The notes under the pieces: model-generated | What the model was told of the DNA's origin: nothing | The model's database searches: none | Seen by the model: only the letters and a program-made list of their open reading frames with translations | Made by a program: the position numbers and the translations under genes | Virus record (IMG/VR): IMGVR_UViG_3300009788_001058 | Span: 1-20,882 of that record | DNA from: a virus | DNA length: 20,882 nt | Strand: one strand, 5' to 3' | In this document: in pieces, positions 758 to 14,644 of the stretch | How positions within the stretch are numbered: position 1 is the stretch's first letter | Layout: each line of letters begins with the position of its first letter

Positions 758-2300
758 AACGGTGCGCCTTCCTATTCGACTGTGGCACGCTCTGCTCGTT
801 CCACTTCATATAAGCGGGTGCATCGGCGCGTGCCTTGATCAACATCTGACTGATCCGTGGCTTACGTGATAACAGGTACTTCGTTGTATCCATAGCGTGA
901 TCGTTGCGATCCATCGGGATGTCTTCAGTCTCGCCTTGCGGATCACGCTTCCAGTAGTAGTCGACGATCTCGTCAACGAAGAAGTCCAACTCGGTCGCGA
1001 TGTACAGATAAGGTGCGGGTGAGTCACCTGTCAGTGGGTGCTTATGGTTCTTATGCGGCAACAGATACCCCTGGACCTTCATGATCCCGTTGATGATCTC
1101 GTTGTTCCCTCGTTGCATCTTGATCCCATTCCCCCCATCCCGGAATAACTCGGCCACGGTTACGCCGACAACCTTCTTGTCGCCTGCACCGCGCCGGAAG
1201 ATCGCAGGATCGGCAAACGTACGTTGTGGGGTGTCGATAGACTGTAGCCATGATCTTCGTATCCTCTTGATCTCTTCGATACTGGTCTCAATGGAGCATT
1301 CTACTGTATGGAAGCCATCACACACAATGATGTTGCCCCACGGATCGACGAAGCTGAACAGGTAACAACTTGGCTTGACTAATCCGTGATCGTATCCTTC
1401 AAGGATCTCGATGTTGTAACCTCGTCCATGTAAGTCTCGTAGATAACTTCGTGCCCACGCTTGTCCGATGCAGTGGGTAGTCTCGTCGAACATTGGGTAG
1501 ACAAGACCTTCGTAAGCTCCCCACTCCCCAAGAAGGAACCGGCTCCGCATCTGACCGGAATACATGGCCTCAAGTAGATGTATGTAGTCAGCGTCGAGGT
1601 TATCCTTATTCTCATAGGTACTCCCCTCGAACAGTTCGACCAGTCCATCCAACGTGTCAGTGTTGAACGCGTCCATGATCTGTTGCAGTTCGGGCGTTAC
1701 GTGTCCTGTGTTGCCGTACGACATGAGCGGACGTACGATCTTCTTGAAGAACCAGTTACGCGTTGGGTTGCACGTTAGAACTAACCACCGCGGACCAGAC
1801 GACGGCATTGTCGAATCGCTGCCGCTGTACGGCGTTGATCCTCTAAGTCGCCCAAGTAGATCAAGGAAGTCCTTGAACGTGAACTCGGGGTCATCGATCT
1901 GGTCGATGAAGATTGCATCGTACGTTGCCGAGAGCAGATTGCTTGTCGTGCTCTCATTGCTCTTACCGTGCTGTTGAACATAACGGAAGTTCACCTCTGT
2001 TTCGTTGATCAACGTGTCTGTGTTCGGTGAGTTCTGCGACTTCGGGAATGACTTCGACCAGTGTCGCGGGCGCCACTTCTCATACTCCTTGCGTATGGTA
2101 TCGTTGAGCTTCGGATACGTAGCTCGTGCAATAAGGATGTTGGCACCGGGGTAGTCCTTAGCCAGTGTGATAGCCTTGATGCAAGCATTAGCAGTCTTCC
2201 CATTAGCGAACCCTCCCCCGAATATCTGTATCTTCGCGCGTGACTGTTGGAACCGCTGTTGCAGTGATCCCTCGTATATGCGGAACGTTCTCTTGGTCAT
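732..2300 (-). CDS. terL: Terminase large subunit (ATPase-nuclease)
   Basis: This is the packaging motor, which pumps DNA into the prohead through the portal and cuts concatemers. The 522-aa length is normal for the family. The N-terminal ATPase shows Walker A GGFANGKT at residues 29-36 and Walker B in YDAIFIDQIDD near residue 130, followed by the coupling-type motif LTCNPT. The C-terminal RNase H-like nuclease is suggested by acidic clusters in EGYDHG, FADPAIF and RNDHAMD, the expected pattern of metal-binding aspartates. The ATG overlaps the TGA of the upstream repeat protein (ATGA), so translation is probably coupled; no strong Shine-Dalgarno is seen. The portal gene starts inside its 3' end. 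Family membership is secure; the packaging type (cos or headful) cannot be told from here. Confidence 0.93.
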   Translation of the reverse strand: MTKRTFRIYEGSLQQRFQQSRAKIQIFGGGFANGKTANACIKAITLAKDYPGANILIARATYPKLNDTIRKEYEKWRPRHWSKSFPKSQNSPNTDTLINETEVNFRYVQQHGKSNESTTSNLLSATYDAIFIDQIDDPEFTFKDFLDLLGRLRGSTPYSGSDSTMPSSGPRWLVLTCNPTRNWFFKKIVRPLMSYGNTGHVTPELQQIMDAFNTDTLDGLVELFEGSTYENKDNLDADYIHLLEAMYSGQMRSRFLLGEWGAYEGLVYPMFDETTHCIGQAWARSYLRDLHGRGYNIEILEGYDHGLVKPSCYLFSFVDPWGNIIVCDGFHTVECSIETSIEEIKRIRRSWLQSIDTPQRTFADPAIFRRGAGDKKVVGVTVAELFRDGGNGIKMQRGNNEIINGIMKVQGYLLPHKNHKHPLTGDSPAPYLYIATELDFFVDEIVDYYWKRDPQGETEDIPMDRNDHAMDTTKYLLSRKPRISQMLIKARADAPAYMKWNEQSVPQSNRKAHRYGRSATTA

Positions 2301-4588
2301 ATTGTCGTCTCTGGGCGCTCAACGCCCTTACCGCGTACGGTCGTTACGATGTTGACAGATCGTCCAACGATCTTCGCCGGTACTGGCCCAATGAGTGTTA
2401 TCGCTGGTGCAGTGTCTACCTCAGTGGTGACACCAAGTAACAAGGTCTTCGGGTGAGCCATCGCGAGCGCCACATCCGTCTCAGACACGATACCAAGTGG
2501 CTCGTCTCGGTTCGGCTGCATGATTAGCGCGATATCGACCTCAGTTGCTACTCCAAGGACGTGCACACGCGGGTGCGCCATTAAGGGCGCATCGTCTACT
2601 TCGGATGCAACACCAATGAAGATGATCTGAGACTGTCCTGCTTCTATTAACGGAGCACTGTCAACTTCGGACGCCAGTCCCAACACGTGTGCACGGTCCG
2701 CTACCAAGTCGAACGCTGCATCGGTCTCTGTAGCTACGCCAATGTTCAAGCCCTTCGGGTGCGCCATCGCCGGTGCGCTGTCGACTTCGGATGCAACTCC
2801 AAACGTCTCATCACGGTTCGGCTGCATCGCTGGCGCACTGTCCACCTCGGGTGCGATGTCCATCGGTACCGGCAACAGTACGCGAGGAGCGAAGTCTACT
2901 TCGGTTGATACGCCTAATAATATTGCCTTCGAGTGATCGAATGTAGACGCACTGTCCGTTTCTGATGCTACGTTAAGCGCGCGGACTCGAATGGCGGTGA
3001 TTGTCGGAGCGCTACCAACCCCAGTCGAGACACCTAGTATGTGTGCTCTGTCGATTGCGAGTACGGGTGCAACATCAACCTCGGCTGCTACGTTCAACTG
3101 AAGCGTCTTCGAGTGATCGAATGTGGGGGCGCTATCGACCTCAGTCGAGATACCAAATGTACGTGCACGATCCGGTACAATTGCAGGCGCACTATCGGCC
3201 TCGGGGGCTACGCTGAGATTGACTGCCTTCGAGTGCACCATAGCAGGTGCGCTGTCTACTTCCGATGCAACACTGAACGGGTGTAACTTGGCTGGTGTGA
3301 TAGTAGGCGCGCTGTCGACCTCCGTTGTAACACCAAGAGGAACTTGCTTAGAGTGCACCACCGCTGGGGCTGTGTCTGTCTCAGACGTAACGTTGATCGA
3401 CCGCACCTTCAGCCGTCCAAGTGCGGGCGCGCTGTCAACCTCAGTCGATACTCCAATGGTGCGTGTACGGAGCGGTACATTCACTGGCGCACTGTCCGTC
3501 TCTGCCGCTATCTTCAACGCAACACGCAATTGGAGTGTGGGCGCCGTGTCTGCTTCTGACGCAACGCCTATCTCGACGACTAACCCAACACCGACTGGAG
3601 GTGCGCGTTCCGTGAACGACCAGCCACTTGCCCATCGCCACACAGGCGGCTTCGTAGCATCTGGTGTAACACCGGGGATCAGTCCCGGGTGCCAGATACC
3701 CGATACGCTTCTCCTTGCACGCGCGAGGATGATGTCGCCAGGGATGAACATCACTGGCGCTGTGTCTGTCTCCGTCGTTACACCAAGATTGAGTCCCTTA
3801 GAGTGATCGAACGTGGGGGCGCTGCCTACTCCCGTCGCAACACCGATCGTTCGCGTTCTGAGTGGTGTAATGATCGGAGCGGTGCCGACTCCAGTAGTAA
3901 CACCGAGATTGAGCCCCTTGGAATGATCGAACGTTGGTGCAGTAGCAGCTTCGGTCGTAACGCCCATCACCACCGGGGGCAGGCCCGACGCGGCAATCGC
4001 GACCGCAGCAAGTACCCAATTACGGTTCTGCGCGTAGTCCGCAGTCATCGTGATCGTAGTAGCGCCGACCTCAGTGATGCCGCCACCACTTGGCTCATCC
4101 CCCGCGTGATCCCAACGCTCTGTACCTGCGGTAGCTGCATAGTTCAGGTCACGACCAAGAGAGAACACCATCATCCCGAAGCCATCCGTCGCGCCAGCAA
4201 CAGCACGCGTAGGATCACCTTGACCGCTTGCAGTCTCGTTCGTCTGGATTGGGGTAGTCTGATTAACACCGCTGAACGCGCAACAGCCCGCGCTGAACCC
4301 GTTATCGGCGCCGGATAGTATAACCTCGATCACTTCGGAGGTAGTTGACGGGTCCTTCAGTTCGAACAGTTCAATTCGAATGTCATTAACAGCGTCGTTC
4401 AACACCGCGATCTGTGTGAACGCAGTACCGCTTACGCCCTTGTTCACCCCGCTAACGGTCACTGCGGCTGTAGTCGTAACACCACAGAGTAAGTAACGGT
4501 CTGCCCCCGCAGGTACAATAGCAGGCGTCGTTAGACTAGAACCACCGTGGTTCTGTGCACTAACAACACTTTCAAACCCAACGGCCAT
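2297..4588 (-). CDS. Repeat-rich virion or appendage protein with about 24 copies of a 20-residue repeat
   Basis: The protein has 763 aa. Residues 1-205 form a beta-rich domain with alternating short hydrophobic strands (ADRYLLCGV, VIEVILSG, WVLAAVAIA), of a type common in environmental phage and bacterial surface proteins. From about residue 208 to 740 there are about 24 tandem units of mostly 20 residues with the core GVxxEVDSAP. The second half of each unit is usually of two kinds, HSK-containing or xRxRT-containing, and these partly alternate. A stretch of about 50 residues (including SGIWHPGLIPG) interrupts the array after the fourth unit. The tail ends with a basic VRGKGVERPETTI. Such regular short repeats suggest a fibrous or beta-solenoid structure. 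It lies between an unknown structural gene and the terminase; start and stop overlap both (TAATG upstream, ATGA downstream). A virion role is inferred from context. Confidence 0.8.
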   Translation of the reverse strand: MAVGFESVVSAQNHGGSSLTTPAIVPAGADRYLLCGVTTTAAVTVSGVNKGVSGTAFTQIAVLNDAVNDIRIELFELKDPSTTSEVIEVILSGADNGFSAGCCAFSGVNQTTPIQTNETASGQGDPTRAVAGATDGFGMMVFSLGRDLNYAATAGTERWDHAGDEPSGGGITEVGATTITMTADYAQNRNWVLAAVAIAASGLPPVVMGVTTEAATAPTFDHSKGLNLGVTTGVGTAPIITPLRTRTIGVATGVGSAPTFDHSKGLNLGVTTETDTAPVMFIPGDIILARARRSVSGIWHPGLIPGVTPDATKPPVWRWASGWSFTERAPPVGVGLVVEIGVASEADTAPTLQLRVALKIAAETDSAPVNVPLRTRTIGVSTEVDSAPALGRLKVRSINVTSETDTAPAVVHSKQVPLGVTTEVDSAPTITPAKLHPFSVASEVDSAPAMVHSKAVNLSVAPEADSAPAIVPDRARTFGISTEVDSAPTFDHSKTLQLNVAAEVDVAPVLAIDRAHILGVSTGVGSAPTITAIRVRALNVASETDSASTFDHSKAILLGVSTEVDFAPRVLLPVPMDIAPEVDSAPAMQPNRDETFGVASEVDSAPAMAHPKGLNIGVATETDAAFDLVADRAHVLGLASEVDSAPLIEAGQSQIIFIGVASEVDDAPLMAHPRVHVLGVATEVDIALIMQPNRDEPLGIVSETDVALAMAHPKTLLLGVTTEVDTAPAITLIGPVPAKIVGRSVNIVTTVRGKGVERPETTI

Positions 4589-5628
4589 TACACACCTGAG
4601 ATCATCTTCGCTTCTGAGTACACATCTGCTACATCGGTCAACGCCTTCGTAGCAACCCGCACACCGGCACTGTTGTACATCTCCTTGATCGGAGTGCCTA
4701 CGTCTAGTCTGTTGCGCGCCGTCATGTAATGCAACATGAGAGCCTTGGCAACTGTTGGAGTAACGTCTGGAACACCTTGAACAAGCTCTGCCATCGTCTC
4801 ACCAGTGAGTATCTGGTTCGGTACATCGTTCGCAGCGCTATCTGCAACACCAAGGAGTGCATCCAGCGTTGGATTGTTGGTACGCGCTGAGATTACTGCA
4901 CCCAACGCACGTAGTAATAAGCCCGCGGCCGACGCAGCACCGTGTGCAGCAACAATGTTCTCATCCCACACTGCATCTGCCGCTTCCGCGTGTACATCAG
5001 CCGCAACCTTCGCCGCAGTGATCGCATCGGCGTTGATCTTGGCTGCCGTGAGCATGTTCGCTGCAAGAGCGGCTGCGTTGATAGCGCCGGCTGCGAATGC
5101 TGCCGTCGTGATGCTCCCTGCGGTTGGTCCTGCCGTGTATCCTGTCTTGCCAACGTTCCAATCCGCTGTAGTGAGTGCGTAACCACTCTTGCCAATGTTC
5201 CAGTCGCCCTTACCGTTCAACGCTGCGGCATTGATCGACGCTGCGGTGATAATGCTAGCAGTGAACTCTGCCACGTGCACCTGAAGCCGGTCAGACCCGT
5301 ATATGCTGTCGAACACGTTAGCAGGGAAGACCTCGAACTCGTGACGGATTGGAAGGATCAAGCTGTCATCCTGAATGACGATGGTACACCGACCAAGGGT
5401 GTCAGTCTCCCCCGTACTCAGGTTGAGGTGGTAATGTCCGTCGACAGCAATCGTATACGCCGTGAGCGTTCCGGCAAGCACTGCACTTGTCGTCCCGTTG
5501 TGCTTGATTATGTGCTTCTCGTCTGCTCCGGCGATGGTCAACGTTGTGACGGGGGTGAATCCATCCCCGACTGCGACAGCGGGGCCAATATCAACCTCGG
5601 TAGCAGTACTCTGTTTAAGTGGTTGCAT
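4588..5628 (-). CDS. Probable virion-associated protein, Ala-rich
   Basis: The 346-aa protein starts MQPLKQSTATEVDIGPAV, then carries a beta-rich domain (about residues 20-105) ending in HEFEVFPANVFDSIYGSD. The combination of an N-terminal 'PLKQSTA' and a later 'FPANVxDSxxGSDxLQVH' is a recurring pattern in phage genomes from environmental samples; its function is not known to me. Residues 115-235 are Ala-rich and low complexity (repeated INAAAL, ITAAK), suggesting a helical stalk or trimeric fibre. The segment TATEVDIGPAV near the N-terminus resembles one unit of the 20-residue repeat in the next gene. ATG follows directly after the TAG of the upstream gene, and the stop TAA overlaps the next ATG by one base, so the genes are translationally coupled. 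Confidence 0.75.
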   Translation of the reverse strand: MQPLKQSTATEVDIGPAVAVGDGFTPVTTLTIAGADEKHIIKHNGTTSAVLAGTLTAYTIAVDGHYHLNLSTGETDTLGRCTIVIQDDSLILPIRHEFEVFPANVFDSIYGSDRLQVHVAEFTASIITAASINAAALNGKGDWNIGKSGYALTTADWNVGKTGYTAGPTAGSITTAAFAAGAINAAALAANMLTAAKINADAITAAKVAADVHAEAADAVWDENIVAAHGAASAAGLLLRALGAVISARTNNPTLDALLGVADSAANDVPNQILTGETMAELVQGVPDVTPTVAKALMLHYMTARNRLDVGTPIKEMYNSAGVRVATKALTDVADVYSEAKMISGV

Positions 5629-11891: not shown

Positions 11892-11919
11892 TTGACATAA
11901 GACCTACGTATGGTAGGAT
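11892..11919 (+). promoter_or_regulatory. Rightward sigma-70-like promoter for the 259-aa gene
   Basis: TTGACA at 11892-11897, a 16-bp spacer, and TAGGAT at 11914-11919. It starts TTGACATA like the other two strong rightward promoters. Immediately after it, CGTTGTG-GACAT-CACAACG (11927-11945) forms a hairpin at the expected +1; a second small hairpin, GCGCC-ACTC-GGCGC, follows near 11948. Confidence 0.65.
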
Positions 11920-11926
11920 CAGCATG

Positions 11927-11945
11927 CGTTGTGGACATCACAACG
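11927..11945 (+). promoter_or_regulatory. Hairpin at transcript 5' end (or operator)
   Basis: CGTTGTG and CACAACG (7 bp) flank a 5-nt loop, beginning about 8 nt after the -10 box. As RNA it would cap the 5' end; as DNA it could be an operator overlapping the start site. Confidence 0.5.
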
Positions 11946-12066
11946 TTGCGCCACTCGGCGCCTGCTGTTTGACAATAGAATAGGAACACGCAAGTCAACG
12001 CCGTAAGGTGTTGGCCACGTGTTCTTGCTGTCAATAGTAGTTCACCCTGTAAGGAAGGTTATTACT

Positions 12067-12846
12067 ATGACTGACAAGAAGGCGACTAAGGTTAAGGAAC
12101 AGGTCAAGCCTGTTTCAACTGGTCACAACGTTAACCCTGCGTACGATGTGCTCTGTGCACGCGGTAGCAAGATCAAGGCGTTGTGGGATAAGGCTGACAA
12201 GGCTCAAGGATCGGCCGATGCCCACGCCGCGTTGCTTCTCGTCGAGGCTCATGAGTTTGGATTCTTCGATCAAGTCAACGTAAGGGACTGGACGAAGATC
12301 GCAACGGCCAGGGAACGCAACAGTTTCTCAGATATCGTTCTGATCTACCTATTCGGTATTGAGAAGCCCGAACCCGCCGACCGGCAACGGTTACAGCGGA
12401 TTAGGTTTGTAGTTCCTGCGATCATCGATGCAGGTGGAAGCAAGGCCGCCAAGATGTCGAAGTCTGGCGCAATCATGCTGGACGCAGATTCTAAGTACTT
12501 CAAGGCTTGTCCGACAGGCGGTCAAGAAGTACAAGGTTTCGCATCACTCTCTATTGCTAAGCTGTCGCGAGGCGGCAAGAAGTTACTTGCTAAGGAATTG
12601 CCCAAGCAACAGCGGGCGCCTCAGACTGCGACCGGACAGGACAGAACGCCAGCCGTTAAGCTGGTTGAATTGGCCCAGATAACAGAAGGTAAGGTAAGCG
12701 CCTTGTCCGATGGTGCTGCAAGCCTAGACAATTCAACGTCTAAGGCATTGCAATCGCTCTTAGTCGCGTTGATGGGGGTGTTCGCCGAAGATACGGCGGG
12801 CGGCATCGATACAACGCAACTTGTTAAGATGTACAAGGCGGCGTAA
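12067..12846 (+). CDS. Unknown early protein, 259 aa
   Basis: The protein starts MTDKKATKVKEQVKP with a Lys-rich N-terminus. A helical part follows (NPAYDVLCARGSKIKALWDKADKAQG, later VRDWTKIATARERNSFSDIVLIYLF), then a middle RIRFVVPAIIDAGGSKAAKM and a C-terminal helix ending QLVKMYKAA. I do not recognise a family. A longer frame begins at 12019, but AAGGAAGG 9 nt before ATG 12067 selects the shorter form. It is the first gene of the rightward arm, has its own promoter (11892-11919) and its own strong terminator, so it is a one-gene transcription unit, probably well expressed and early. Confidence 0.8.
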   Translation: MTDKKATKVKEQVKPVSTGHNVNPAYDVLCARGSKIKALWDKADKAQGSADAHAALLLVEAHEFGFFDQVNVRDWTKIATARERNSFSDIVLIYLFGIEKPEPADRQRLQRIRFVVPAIIDAGGSKAAKMSKSGAIMLDADSKYFKACPTGGQEVQGFASLSIAKLSRGGKKLLAKELPKQQRAPQTATGQDRTPAVKLVELAQITEGKVSALSDGAASLDNSTSKALQSLLVALMGVFAEDTAGGIDTTQLVKMYKAA

Positions 12847-13055: not shown

Positions 13056-13084
13056 TTGACATAGCGTACCACCTATGGTACAAT
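13056..13084 (+). promoter_or_regulatory. Strong sigma-70-like promoter
   Basis: TTGACA at 13056-13061, a 17-bp spacer and TACAAT at 13079-13084: near consensus. The start site is expected near 13091. Confidence 0.85.
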
Positions 13085-13090
13085 ATAGCT

Positions 13091-13191
13091 TCAATCGACG
13101 GGGCAGTCCGTCCCGGTCCGACATGAACCCTCACAAGTAGCACACTCTCCCATATCATAGCCCCCGGTCACGTGATCGGGGGCTTCTTCTT
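13091..13191 (+). ncRNA. Candidate short RNA or attenuated leader of about 100 nt
   Basis: A near-consensus promoter is followed about 100 nt later by a strong terminator with no gene between. The RNA would begin with the hairpin GACGG-GGCAGT-CCGTC (13097-13112), contain a five-codon frame ATG-AAC-CCT-CAC-AAG-TAG (13123-13140) without a clear ribosome binding site, and end in the terminator. It may be a stand-alone small RNA or a leader whose terminator controls read-through into the membrane peptide gene at 13220. Confidence 0.5.
13160..13191 (+). terminator. Rho-independent terminator of the short transcript
   Basis: GCCCCCGGTCAC (13160-13171) pairs with GTGATCGGGGGC (13172-13183) with one G-T wobble, followed by TTCTTCTT. 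Palindrome copy 3 starts four bases later. Confidence 0.85.
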
Positions 13192-13309: not shown

Positions 13310-13572
13310 TGGCACGCCCAACAACGACAGTGGGAGTGCAACCTAACACCAAGCTGTTACGCATTGAGCGTATTGCATCTGACATACACAACTGGCCGCA
13401 CCTATCCGAGAGTGGATGGATGGTGTGGCTCAATGCTAACCGCGACTTCACATGCGGTACGTACCTACTACTACACGATGACGGCAGCATCGAGCGGGTG
13501 ACTGCCGAACCTGACGGTGGTGAAGACATCATGATCGTCAAGAGGAGGGACAACTATGATGATGAGCCTTAA
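13309..13572 (+). CDS. Small unknown protein, 87 aa
   Basis: The protein starts MARPTTTVGVQPNTKLLRIE, contains SGWMVWLNANRDFTCGTYLLLHDDGSIERV and ends with an acidic tail. It looks like a small alpha-beta domain with beta strands in the centre. I do not recognise it. The longer frame from 13231 overlaps the membrane peptide gene and lacks a binding site; ATG 13309 shares its A with the TAA of that peptide gene (coupled translation). It overlaps the next gene by 17 nt, and its 3' end carries that gene's AGGAGG. Confidence 0.65.
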   Translation: MARPTTTVGVQPNTKLLRIERIASDIHNWPHLSESGWMVWLNANRDFTCGTYLLLHDDGSIERVTAEPDGGEDIMIVKRRDNYDDEP

Positions 13573-13978
13573 GTATTGGGACAGTGAGGGGCTATTCGTC
13601 GAGCTATCGCAGTCCGAAGACGACAAGTTCATACACATGGATGTATCACGCAAGCATCCGACTACCGTAGTCGATGAGACAGGCGACTACGAGATGAGTA
13701 ACGTGCGATACATCGCATCATGTCAGTTCGTCAGCATCGAACATGCTCAAGCTATCGCTCACTTGCTCGTTGGCATCGTCATCCAAGAGGACAAGGCAGC
13801 ATGGAAGCGTGGCCCACGTGGTGAGGCGTACCCAACTGACAGTGCGGGCAAGCGCATCGTACCATCTGACTTCGGTGGTGAGGTGCCACCCATACGCCGA
13901 TGCACACACGACAACACAACGTACGTTGGCGAGCACACGTGGTGTGATGACTGCGGTGCAGAGGTGTCCTTCTCATGA
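13556..13978 (+). CDS. Small protein with C-terminal zinc-ribbon-like motif, 140 aa
   Basis: The protein starts MMMSLKYWDSEGLFVEL, has a helical middle (FVSIEHAQAIAHLLVGIVI) and a C-terminus with C116-x-H118 and C130-x2-C133, a spacing that fits a small zinc-binding knuckle. Family not recognised. AGGAGG seven to eight bases before the ATG at 13556 supports the start, although two more in-frame ATGs follow at once. Palindrome copy 4 lies inside the gene, where it reads T-T-Y-V just before the zinc cysteines. The stop overlaps the next gene (ATGA). Confidence 0.7.
   Translation: MMMSLKYWDSEGLFVELSQSEDDKFIHMDVSRKHPTTVVDETGDYEMSNVRYIASCQFVSIEHAQAIAHLLVGIVIQEDKAAWKRGPRGEAYPTDSAGKRIVPSDFGGEVPPIRRCTHDNTTYVGEHTWCDDCGAEVSFS
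13917..13928. repeat. Dispersed palindrome CAACGTACGTTG, copy 4
   Basis: Exact copy inside the 140-aa gene. Confidence 0.9.
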
Positions 13979-14187
13979 GACAAGCACCCTTCCAACGCGC
14001 ACACTTCCAAGCCTTAGCCTTGATCGTGCGTGACATGCCTGACGACACGTGTCGCTTGCTTGACATGCGTACCAACAGACCCATTGACTTGCGTCGTGTT
14101 GTCGCTGAGTACCTATGCAATGAGTTCAGTAAGACACATTCACACTTCAAGGAAGCACGCTTCATGCAAGCGTGCGGTATAGAGTAG
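13975..14187 (+). CDS. Small unknown protein, 70 aa
   Basis: The protein starts MRQAPFQRAHFQALALIVRD, basic and helical, with RPIDLRRVVAEYLCNEFSKTH and FKEARFMQACGIE. It could be a small nucleic-acid-binding or adaptor protein, but no family is recognised. It is coupled to the preceding gene by an ATGA overlap and ends just before the promoter at 14192, so it closes the transcription unit that starts near 13.2 kb. Confidence 0.6.
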   Translation: MRQAPFQRAHFQALALIVRDMPDDTCRLLDMRTNRPIDLRRVVAEYLCNEFSKTHSHFKEARFMQACGIE

Positions 14188-14191
14188 GTAC

Positions 14192-14220
14192 TTGACATAG
14201 CGCACGTATCGTGCTATACT
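14192..14220 (+). promoter_or_regulatory. Strong sigma-70-like promoter for the structured leader and DUF932-like gene
   Basis: TTGACA at 14192-14197, a 17-bp spacer and TATACT at 14215-14220. It begins TTGACATAGCG exactly like the promoter at 13056. Start site expected near 14227, where a hairpin begins. Confidence 0.85.
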
Positions 14221-14266
14221 ATACGTATGGTCGAGGTACGACCAACGTCAAGGAAGGGGGATCACC

Positions 14267-14278
14267 ATGAACAAGTGA
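14267..14278 (+). CDS. Three-codon minigene ATG-AAC-AAG-TGA
   Basis: M-N-K-stop, preceded by AGGAAGGGGG six bases before the ATG, one of the best ribosome binding sites in the window. It begins about 40 nt after the expected transcript start. In phage lambda, the bar minigenes of two codons are translated and tie up tRNA by drop-off; a similar role, or translation-dependent control of the leader, is possible here. It could instead be the relic of a deleted gene. Confidence 0.4.
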   Translation: MNK

Positions 14279-14314
14279 ACACGCGGCACCATAGTGGAGC
14301 CGCTTCAACGGGCT

Positions 14315-14326
14315 CAACGTACGTTG
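14315..14326. repeat. Dispersed palindrome CAACGTACGTTG, copy 5
   Basis: Exact copy in the leader. Bases 14313-14320 can also pair with ACGTTGAG at 14340-14347, giving an alternative RNA stem. Confidence 0.9.
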
Positions 14327-14489
14327 TTGTCAGACGATGACGTTGAGTAACGTGCGCAGGGACTGTGCCCCTTGGGTGAGGGGTACAGTCCCTCGCTGCG
14401 TCGTACGTTGAGGTGGGTGGTGTGACCAGCGCCCCTTGTTGATGCCTTGGTCCCTGTAGTGGACTGTCAACGTGTCACACCATCCTCCC

Positions 14490-14501
14490 CAACGTACGTT
14501 G
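14490..14501. repeat. Dispersed palindrome CAACGTACGTTG, copy 6
   Basis: Exact copy in the leader, between two long stems. Confidence 0.9.
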
Positions 14502-14644
14502 CGTATGTTGTAGTGGGTAGTGTGCGTAATGCCAAGCTCATGACATGCCCGTCTGGGGAATGCACATGTCATAGCCAGCGCACTACCCTCTCCAACACAC
14601 GTGGTGTGTGTTGGCTACGTTACGACAGACACAAGGAGATAGTT

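Follow-up and report, generated by a model that had tools for sequence, protein, structure and literature searches.

What might a bacterial virus do with several hundred nucleotides of sequence between a likely transcription start and the gene that follows? The question is raised by a virus record of 20,882 bases, all of which was analysed and which is referred to here as the window. Its source is an unclassified bacterial virus; the left is taken up by minus-strand genes, the terminase among them, and the right by genes on the plus strand. The region examined, 14227-14644, extends from the likely start of transcription up to the start of a gene encoding a DUF932 protein (Pfam PF06067, E 3.7e-8; PHROG 1221, function unknown). 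The elements that delineate this region, hereafter the leader, are the following.

14192..14220, plus strand: sigma-70-type promoter, TTGACA-17-TATACT, with 11/12 consensus matches
14228..14244, plus strand: predicted 5'-terminal hairpin of 6 bp with loop AGGTA; pair probability 0.997, z -3.3 alone
14250..14278, plus strand: minigene ATG AAC AAG TGA (MNK, stop) with its Shine-Dalgarno (SD) sequence AAGGAAGGGGG, read from the sequence
About 14276-14307, plus strand: stem of the predicted fold; a weak stem near 14285 has pair probability 0.76
14312..14348, plus strand: predicted hairpin H1, 9+7 bp, holding a palindrome (14315-14326); pair probability 0.999
14354..14396, plus strand: predicted hairpin H2, 16 bp plus 3 bp with a 4-nt loop; pair probability 1.0, z -6.7 (plus strand) and -7.1 (minus strand)
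14402..14498, plus strand: predicted hairpin H3 (inverted repeat I1), helices of 9, 2 and 12 bp parted by two 1x1 mismatches, and a sub-stem within the loop
14506..14597, plus strand: predicted hairpin H4, helices of 5, 2 and 11 bp parted by two 1x1 mismatches, and a sub-stem within the loop; probably an H3 duplicate that has diverged
14592..14614, plus strand: alternative hairpin H5, 9 bp (14592-14600 with 14606-14614), which excludes the H4 base
14645-15538, plus strand: DUF932 gene, with ATG at 14645 and SD sequence AAGGAG at 14633-14638

Folding of the leader

The leader (418 nt) has a minimum free energy of -196.3 kcal/mol, compared with a mean of -153.7 kcal/mol (sd 5.8) for the 100 dinucleotide shuffles that served as folding controls; this corresponds to z -7.3, and none of the 100 shuffles folds as well. 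The top position among 414 overlapping 200-nt windows, taken from both strands, is held by 14301-14500 on the plus strand (z -9.1), and six of the eight best-folding windows fall in or over the leader. Its core, 14305-14616, gives z -8.8 on the plus strand and -7.6 on the minus strand. In a separate count, three of the eight Watson-Crick hairpins of at least 11 bp in the 20.9 kb are located within it. The folding excess is real and unusual, and it bears out the first-pass annotation, which had described a long, highly structured leader ahead of a DUF932-like gene and had named dinucleotide-shuffled sequences as the proper comparison. The at least six stems that it had counted are likewise found in the predicted fold, as the stems at 14228-14244 and about 14276-14307, H1 to H4, and the sub-stems within loops; pair probabilities mostly exceed 0.9, the base of H4 being lower at 0.85. 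It had also remarked that the stems lack a U-tract and, indeed, none has one; the leader contains a single terminator-like match, at 14419-14433, with a weak stem of 5 bp, and no attenuator of the intrinsic-terminator type, with a G+C stem and then a U-tract before the gene, was found.

The near-consensus promoter noted at the outset is present, its two hexamers lying immediately upstream of the leader; the total number of promoter-like sites (4 versus 3.4 in shuffles) is not above chance, and the count itself proves nothing. Within the fold ensemble, the two SD sequences have opposite states: that of DUF932 has an unpaired probability of 0.92-1.00, whereas that of the minigene, which is strong, is largely paired. 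A bypass from MNK into DUF932 of the kind known from T4 gene 60 was dropped, as DUF932 has its own SD sequence and ATG; a TTG-started in-frame extension of DUF932 (14447) was also dropped, since its relatives begin at MNN. Elsewhere in the window, strong hairpins are also predicted at 11918-12070 (-60.9 kcal/mol over 153 nt), in the leader of the gene that is first to run rightward (12067-12846), and positions 12001-12200 gave z -4.4 and -5.2 in the fold scan.

Palindromes, duplicated hairpins and the switch question

The plus strand folds 21.8 kcal/mol better than the minus strand, but 12 of 100 shuffles are equally biased; the difference is therefore not significant, and strand bias was rejected as an argument for RNA. 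Moreover, folding of the leader as single-stranded DNA, with DNA parameters, gives z -8.2, and H5 forms in this fold. Given these two results, the reading of the leader as an RNA stays one that we infer. The same applies to its transcription and to a role in processing or protein binding. A different explanation would be an element acting at the level of DNA, namely, a dyad cluster of protein-binding palindromes with hairpins or cruciforms, at which a regulator binds or replication starts, and of which the RNA fold is a by-product. We regard this as unlikely, albeit not far-fetched: it would sit well with the folding of both strands, the DNA-parameter score and a strand difference within the range of the shuffles, and also with the palindromes themselves.

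A perfect 12-bp palindrome, CAACGTACGTTG, is repeated exactly nine times in the window, always between 11863 and 19501 and, hence, in the right half only, with some copies in genes (11863, 12903, 13195, 13917, 14315, 14490, 15001, 16440 and 19490). When up to two mismatches are allowed, the window contains 17 copies versus 1.5 expected. Three of these genome-wide repeats are in the leader: two exact copies (14315..14326 and 14490..14501) and one with two mismatches (14399-14410), the base of H3 being built from two of them. The first-pass annotation had placed its two exact palindromes between stems; instead, 14315-14326 lies inside H1 and 14490-14501 inside H3. CAACGTACGTTG is a candidate binding site for a phage regulator. 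The exact palindrome is absent from 80 DUF932 relatives and two terminase relatives. One of the DUF932 relatives (L030, a 46,343-base record) has a different palindrome of its own, TTACACGTGTAA, in three copies (22601, 23178 and 24357), all of them upstream of DUF932; perhaps these are regulator sites that differ between related phages.

However, the palindromes are not the cause of the leader fold, because with all three barred from pairing the leader still gives z -6.1, with none of the 100 shuffles as good; they do not explain H2, the inner part of H3, or H4. Further points that speak against a DNA element are that H1 alone folds well on the plus strand only (z -4.0 versus -0.9), that no AT-rich stretch or switch in strand composition is seen at the leader, and that the array is framed by a promoter and an open ribosome-binding site.

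H3 and H4 resemble each other closely. Their 5' arms are identical at 19 of 23 positions, a score equalled by none of 2000 shuffles, and their 3' arms at 13 of 16, which is weak alone, as 64 of 2000 shuffles are as good. The helix pieces follow in identical order, with single mismatches at the same places, and standard pairing holds in 44 of the 46 pair cells of a two-row alignment. Four pairs have changed on both sides with pairing retained: 14406-14494, 14412-14488, 14419-14481 and 14425-14475 in H3 correspond, respectively, to 14506-14597, 14512-14591, 14519-14584 and 14525-14578 in H4. Two pairs differ one-sidedly, and two have one unpaired cell. If the partner is slid by 1-3 columns, no double change is seen in any of the six registers; the number of double changes is, nonetheless, reached by 28 of 500 shuffles, and this covariation within the leader comes from two sequences, H3 and H4. 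The comparison is suggestive, but not proof, that they are diverged copies of one hairpin in which pairing was kept.

The first-pass annotation had further proposed that an alternative stem, 14313-14320 with 14340-14347, could act as a switch. Here, its interpretation divides: a structured, uncatalogued leader stands, whereas the named pairing is the ground state, being part of the minimum-energy H1 and costing nothing. Pairing of the palindrome 14315-14326 with the third copy, with the second copy or with itself is, respectively, 14.8, 9.6 and 11.9 kcal/mol worse. Among the alternatives tried, only H5 is nearly equal, lying 1.2 kcal/mol over the minimum-energy fold; its formation opens the H4 base and leaves the DUF932 SD sequence uncovered. 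These fold models lend the switch idea weak support at best. A conditional switch, which would alternate between folds to control DUF932 expression in the manner of an attenuator or riboswitch, could draw on the small energy difference between H5 and the H4 base, and the strong SD sequence of the minigene might couple ribosome movement to folding; nevertheless, with a free DUF932 SD sequence, no terminator, no match to a riboswitch family and such costly palindrome pairings, we consider it highly improbable.

Relatives of the locus and their own stem-loop

The remark that the layout is unlike any riboswitch or phage RNA agrees with a comparison against Rfam 15, which covers riboswitches, large phage RNAs, introns and ribozymes: none of the 4227 families matches the window at gathering score. 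With E up to 5, positions 14100-14800 give five sub-threshold matches (mir-2985, MIR5565, mir-6505, MIR5084 and DUF805b), which are of the chance type, four being microRNA precursor families and one DUF805b. An intron or other Rfam ribozyme was dropped for want of an Rfam match. Likewise, blastn with 14100-15600 found no match in 50,697 phage records, and an exact 28-mer from the leader was found nowhere else in a scan of viral contigs. The arm shared by H3 and H4, GTTGNNGTGGGTNGTGTG, was found in at least 120 stretches that, as assessed by script, look like chance matches; among the matches listed, the eight with a complementary-looking arm all carry a single repeated sequence that is unrelated to the leader, a weak terminase match (21%) was seen at one locus, and none has a DUF932 hit. 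In those portions of the literature on phage DUF932, structured phage RNAs, stoperators and translational operators that were accessible, no description of the leader was found.

Six window proteins were also used as queries, and none of these scans produced a relative covering the leader; three of the proteins had no relatives at all (18240-19364, 12067-12846 and 13556-13978). The terminase has one close relative (L081, 87%), but this is only 6 kb long, and a more distant one (L082, 42%); the Sak4-like protein has a 53% relative in a 6-kb contig. Further to the left in the window, 2297-4588 on the minus strand encodes a 763-aa protein made up of many near-repeats of the GVxTEVDSAPA type, with repeated tblastn matches to L081. 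A search for DUF932 in 84,980 genomes returned only two matches, both at 27%. Loci L203 and L204 have equal length, match, coordinates and number (84293), yet the organisms under which they are filed, Flavobacteriales TMED123 and Neomarinimicrobiota MED589, are unrelated; probably a single phage contig has been assigned to two MAGs.

When the DUF932 protein was the query, 80 loci, all at no more than 46% identity, were kept from 596 confirmed stretches; the upstream sequence was read for 25 of them, and 22 were tested for the motif described below. In 19 relatives (L001-L019), the DUF932 start, which is mostly ATGAAYAAY, lies 60-70 nt past a TTGAC element (the starts in L001 and L005 were read by eye). 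Just ahead of the DUF932 SD sequence they have a small stem-loop, the loop of which reads AAURAA (CAATRAAG; AAUUAA in L005), for example, at 4970-5005 in both L017 and L010. When the 19 are aligned, 82% of cells are paired, versus 57% in shuffles, and 31 cells have changed on both sides, compared with 12.4 in shuffles and 6-9 when the rows are slid. A covariance model finds exactly its 19 sources among 87 loci (the 80 relatives and seven isolate loci); as the model was made from those 19, this illustrates specificity rather than independent discovery. The motif is absent from L020, L025 and L030, the model finds no match in the window, where its best E is 6.6 (at 16067), and a scan of 18 of the 19 loci gave no Rfam match for the stem-loop. 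As a conserved RNA element, the AAURAA stem-loop is better supported than the leader, and its position and covariation make it a candidate translational operator.

The annotated gap ahead of DUF932 measures 62, 69, 75, 82, 88 and 117 nt in isolates and 362 nt in Roseobacter phage CRP-212, compared with 457 in the window (14187 to 14645). The minigene occupies approximately the site at which the relatives begin DUF932: its ATG at 14267 is 75 nt from the -35 element, close to the spacing of 60-70 nt in the 19 relatives, and DUF932 itself begins 378 nt downstream. On this basis, the long leader appears to be a lineage-specific expansion at the site of an older regulatory 5' UTR. The same observations could describe a recent insertion or local duplication, a mobile hairpin element devoid of regulatory function that parted the old start (ATGAACAA, 14267) from its gene. 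The surplus of about 365 nt over the 19 relatives would then be the inserted DNA, the first ATG would nearly retain the old spacing together with the ATGAAY sequence, and the H3/H4 duplication would accord with it; but there is no other copy among the loci compared, the repeat list shows no clear target-site duplication, and the four compensated H3/H4 pairs argue that pairing was kept after duplication. This is the least probable of the explanations that we considered. Very unlikely, too, is a combined scheme, a new type of phage regulatory leader in which a regulator-binding palindrome that recurs throughout the early region was built into duplicated RNA hairpins, such that the same sites would be read as double-stranded DNA by a transcription regulator and, once transcribed, as structured RNA, in replacement of the small AAURAA operator of the related phages.

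A fold scan of 213 windows, taken from 23 relatives and reaching no further than 1100 nt ahead of DUF932, has its best score, z -6.3, over a promoter-terminator unit in L010. A unit of this type is also present in the window at 13056-13184, where a promoter is followed by a short hairpin, a C-rich stretch (CUCCC...) and then a strong terminator, for a predicted transcript of ~70-110 nt; others lie upstream of DUF932 in L001, L002, L003, L005, L006, L008 and L010-L017. These 14 of the 19 relatives were chosen by eye, and the terminator stem covaries. Pairing of its C-rich part with SD sequences is conceivable.

The unit at 13056-13184 has a bearing on a further explanation, that the leader is a stand-alone, trans-acting non-coding RNA of 350-400 nt, for example one that serves as decoy for a protein of the host or the phage, DUF932 merely lying downstream. 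That unit shows that the phage has another promoter unit of this general kind, a terminated one; the leader has a strong promoter of its own and a length for which there is no coding need, and its tandem paralogous hairpins would, we suggest, suit a multivalent protein-binding RNA. At its 3' end, however, there is no terminator, and the SD sequence and ATG of DUF932 come directly after; nor is there a homologue near any other gene, or an Rfam match. We therefore hold a stand-alone RNA to be distinctly unlikely.

A working model and its relation to known systems

The reading that we favour, tentatively, is that the early mRNA of DUF932 has a cis-acting 5' untranslated leader, which in this phage lineage has grown into a series of large hairpins, with H3/H4 duplicated, and which serves in processing and stability or in protein binding. 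The folding excess, the duplication with compensated changes, the free SD sequence, the promoter-like sequence and the site of the relatives' stem-loop are computed features of the locus; the RNA reading is preferred because of the promoter, the open SD sequence, H1, and the covarying RNA element that the relatives have at this site. Transcription would begin near 14227, and the transcript would open with a protective hairpin and the three-codon minigene before folding co-transcriptionally into H1 to H4. The irregular double-stranded arms would most likely be sites for a double-strand ribonuclease, an RNA-binding protein or both, and stems of the kind found at RNase III sites are predicted in H2 to H4; how stable the DUF932 message is would be set by cleavage or binding at these arms. 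Meanwhile, the ribosome-binding site of DUF932 would stay open, insulated from the upstream RNA. In the history of the array, one hairpin would have been duplicated to give H3 and H4, which then diverged with their pairing kept.

Autoregulation by DUF932 itself was considered through the predicted structure of the protein (pLDDT 85.6). Foldseek gave no match to solved structures at E <= 0.001, the best VIA-align match (Z 5.1, 134 residues at 5.7 A) is uninformative on function, and the best match of the sequence to solved structures has an E of only 0.41. With no clear structural match, the predicted fold lends autoregulation no support and provides nothing against it.

If the RNA reading is true, the large leader and the stem-loop of the relatives together mark the DUF932 mRNA leader as repeatedly selected for structure. 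The leader would then be unusually large and regular for an early phage gene, and would offer a concrete RNA target for finding its binder.

Among large structured RNAs associated with phages are GOLLD, ROOL and HEARO. The leader resembles these in being a long, structured, non-coding RNA (if RNA it is) in a phage genome, and differs in having no Rfam match at gathering score. The RNase III sites of T7 are single hairpins between genes. As in T7-type early mRNAs, long irregular stems lie between promoter and gene, with no terminator and an open SD sequence downstream; in the present case, there are several hairpins rather than one, and cleavage is hypothetical.

With respect to the palindrome, the closest comparison is with the operators and stoperators of mycobacteriophage L5, which, in the accessible part of the source, are described as 13-bp asymmetric sites oriented with transcription (PMC9283540). 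Like these, CAACGTACGTTG is one short motif with many scattered copies in a phage genome (nine exact), both intergenic and elsewhere; going by the same part of that source, it departs from them in being a perfect palindrome, rather than an asymmetric, oriented 13-mer, and it makes up only part of the leader.

Lastly, the autoregulation of T4 genes 43 and 32 illustrates how phage mRNA leaders may carry RNA hairpin operators, again according to the accessible part of the source (PMC3014915). These likewise place RNA structure upstream of the ribosome-binding site of an early gene, and it is the AAURAA stem-loop of the relatives that fits them best: a conserved, covarying hairpin beside the SD sequence is found in the 19 relatives and not in the window, where the SD sequence is free. 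Whereas the T4 operators, as that portion of the source presents them, consist of a single small hairpin or pseudoknot that lies close to the ribosome-binding site or overlaps it, the leader described here comprises four large hairpins over ~300 nt, followed by a free SD sequence.
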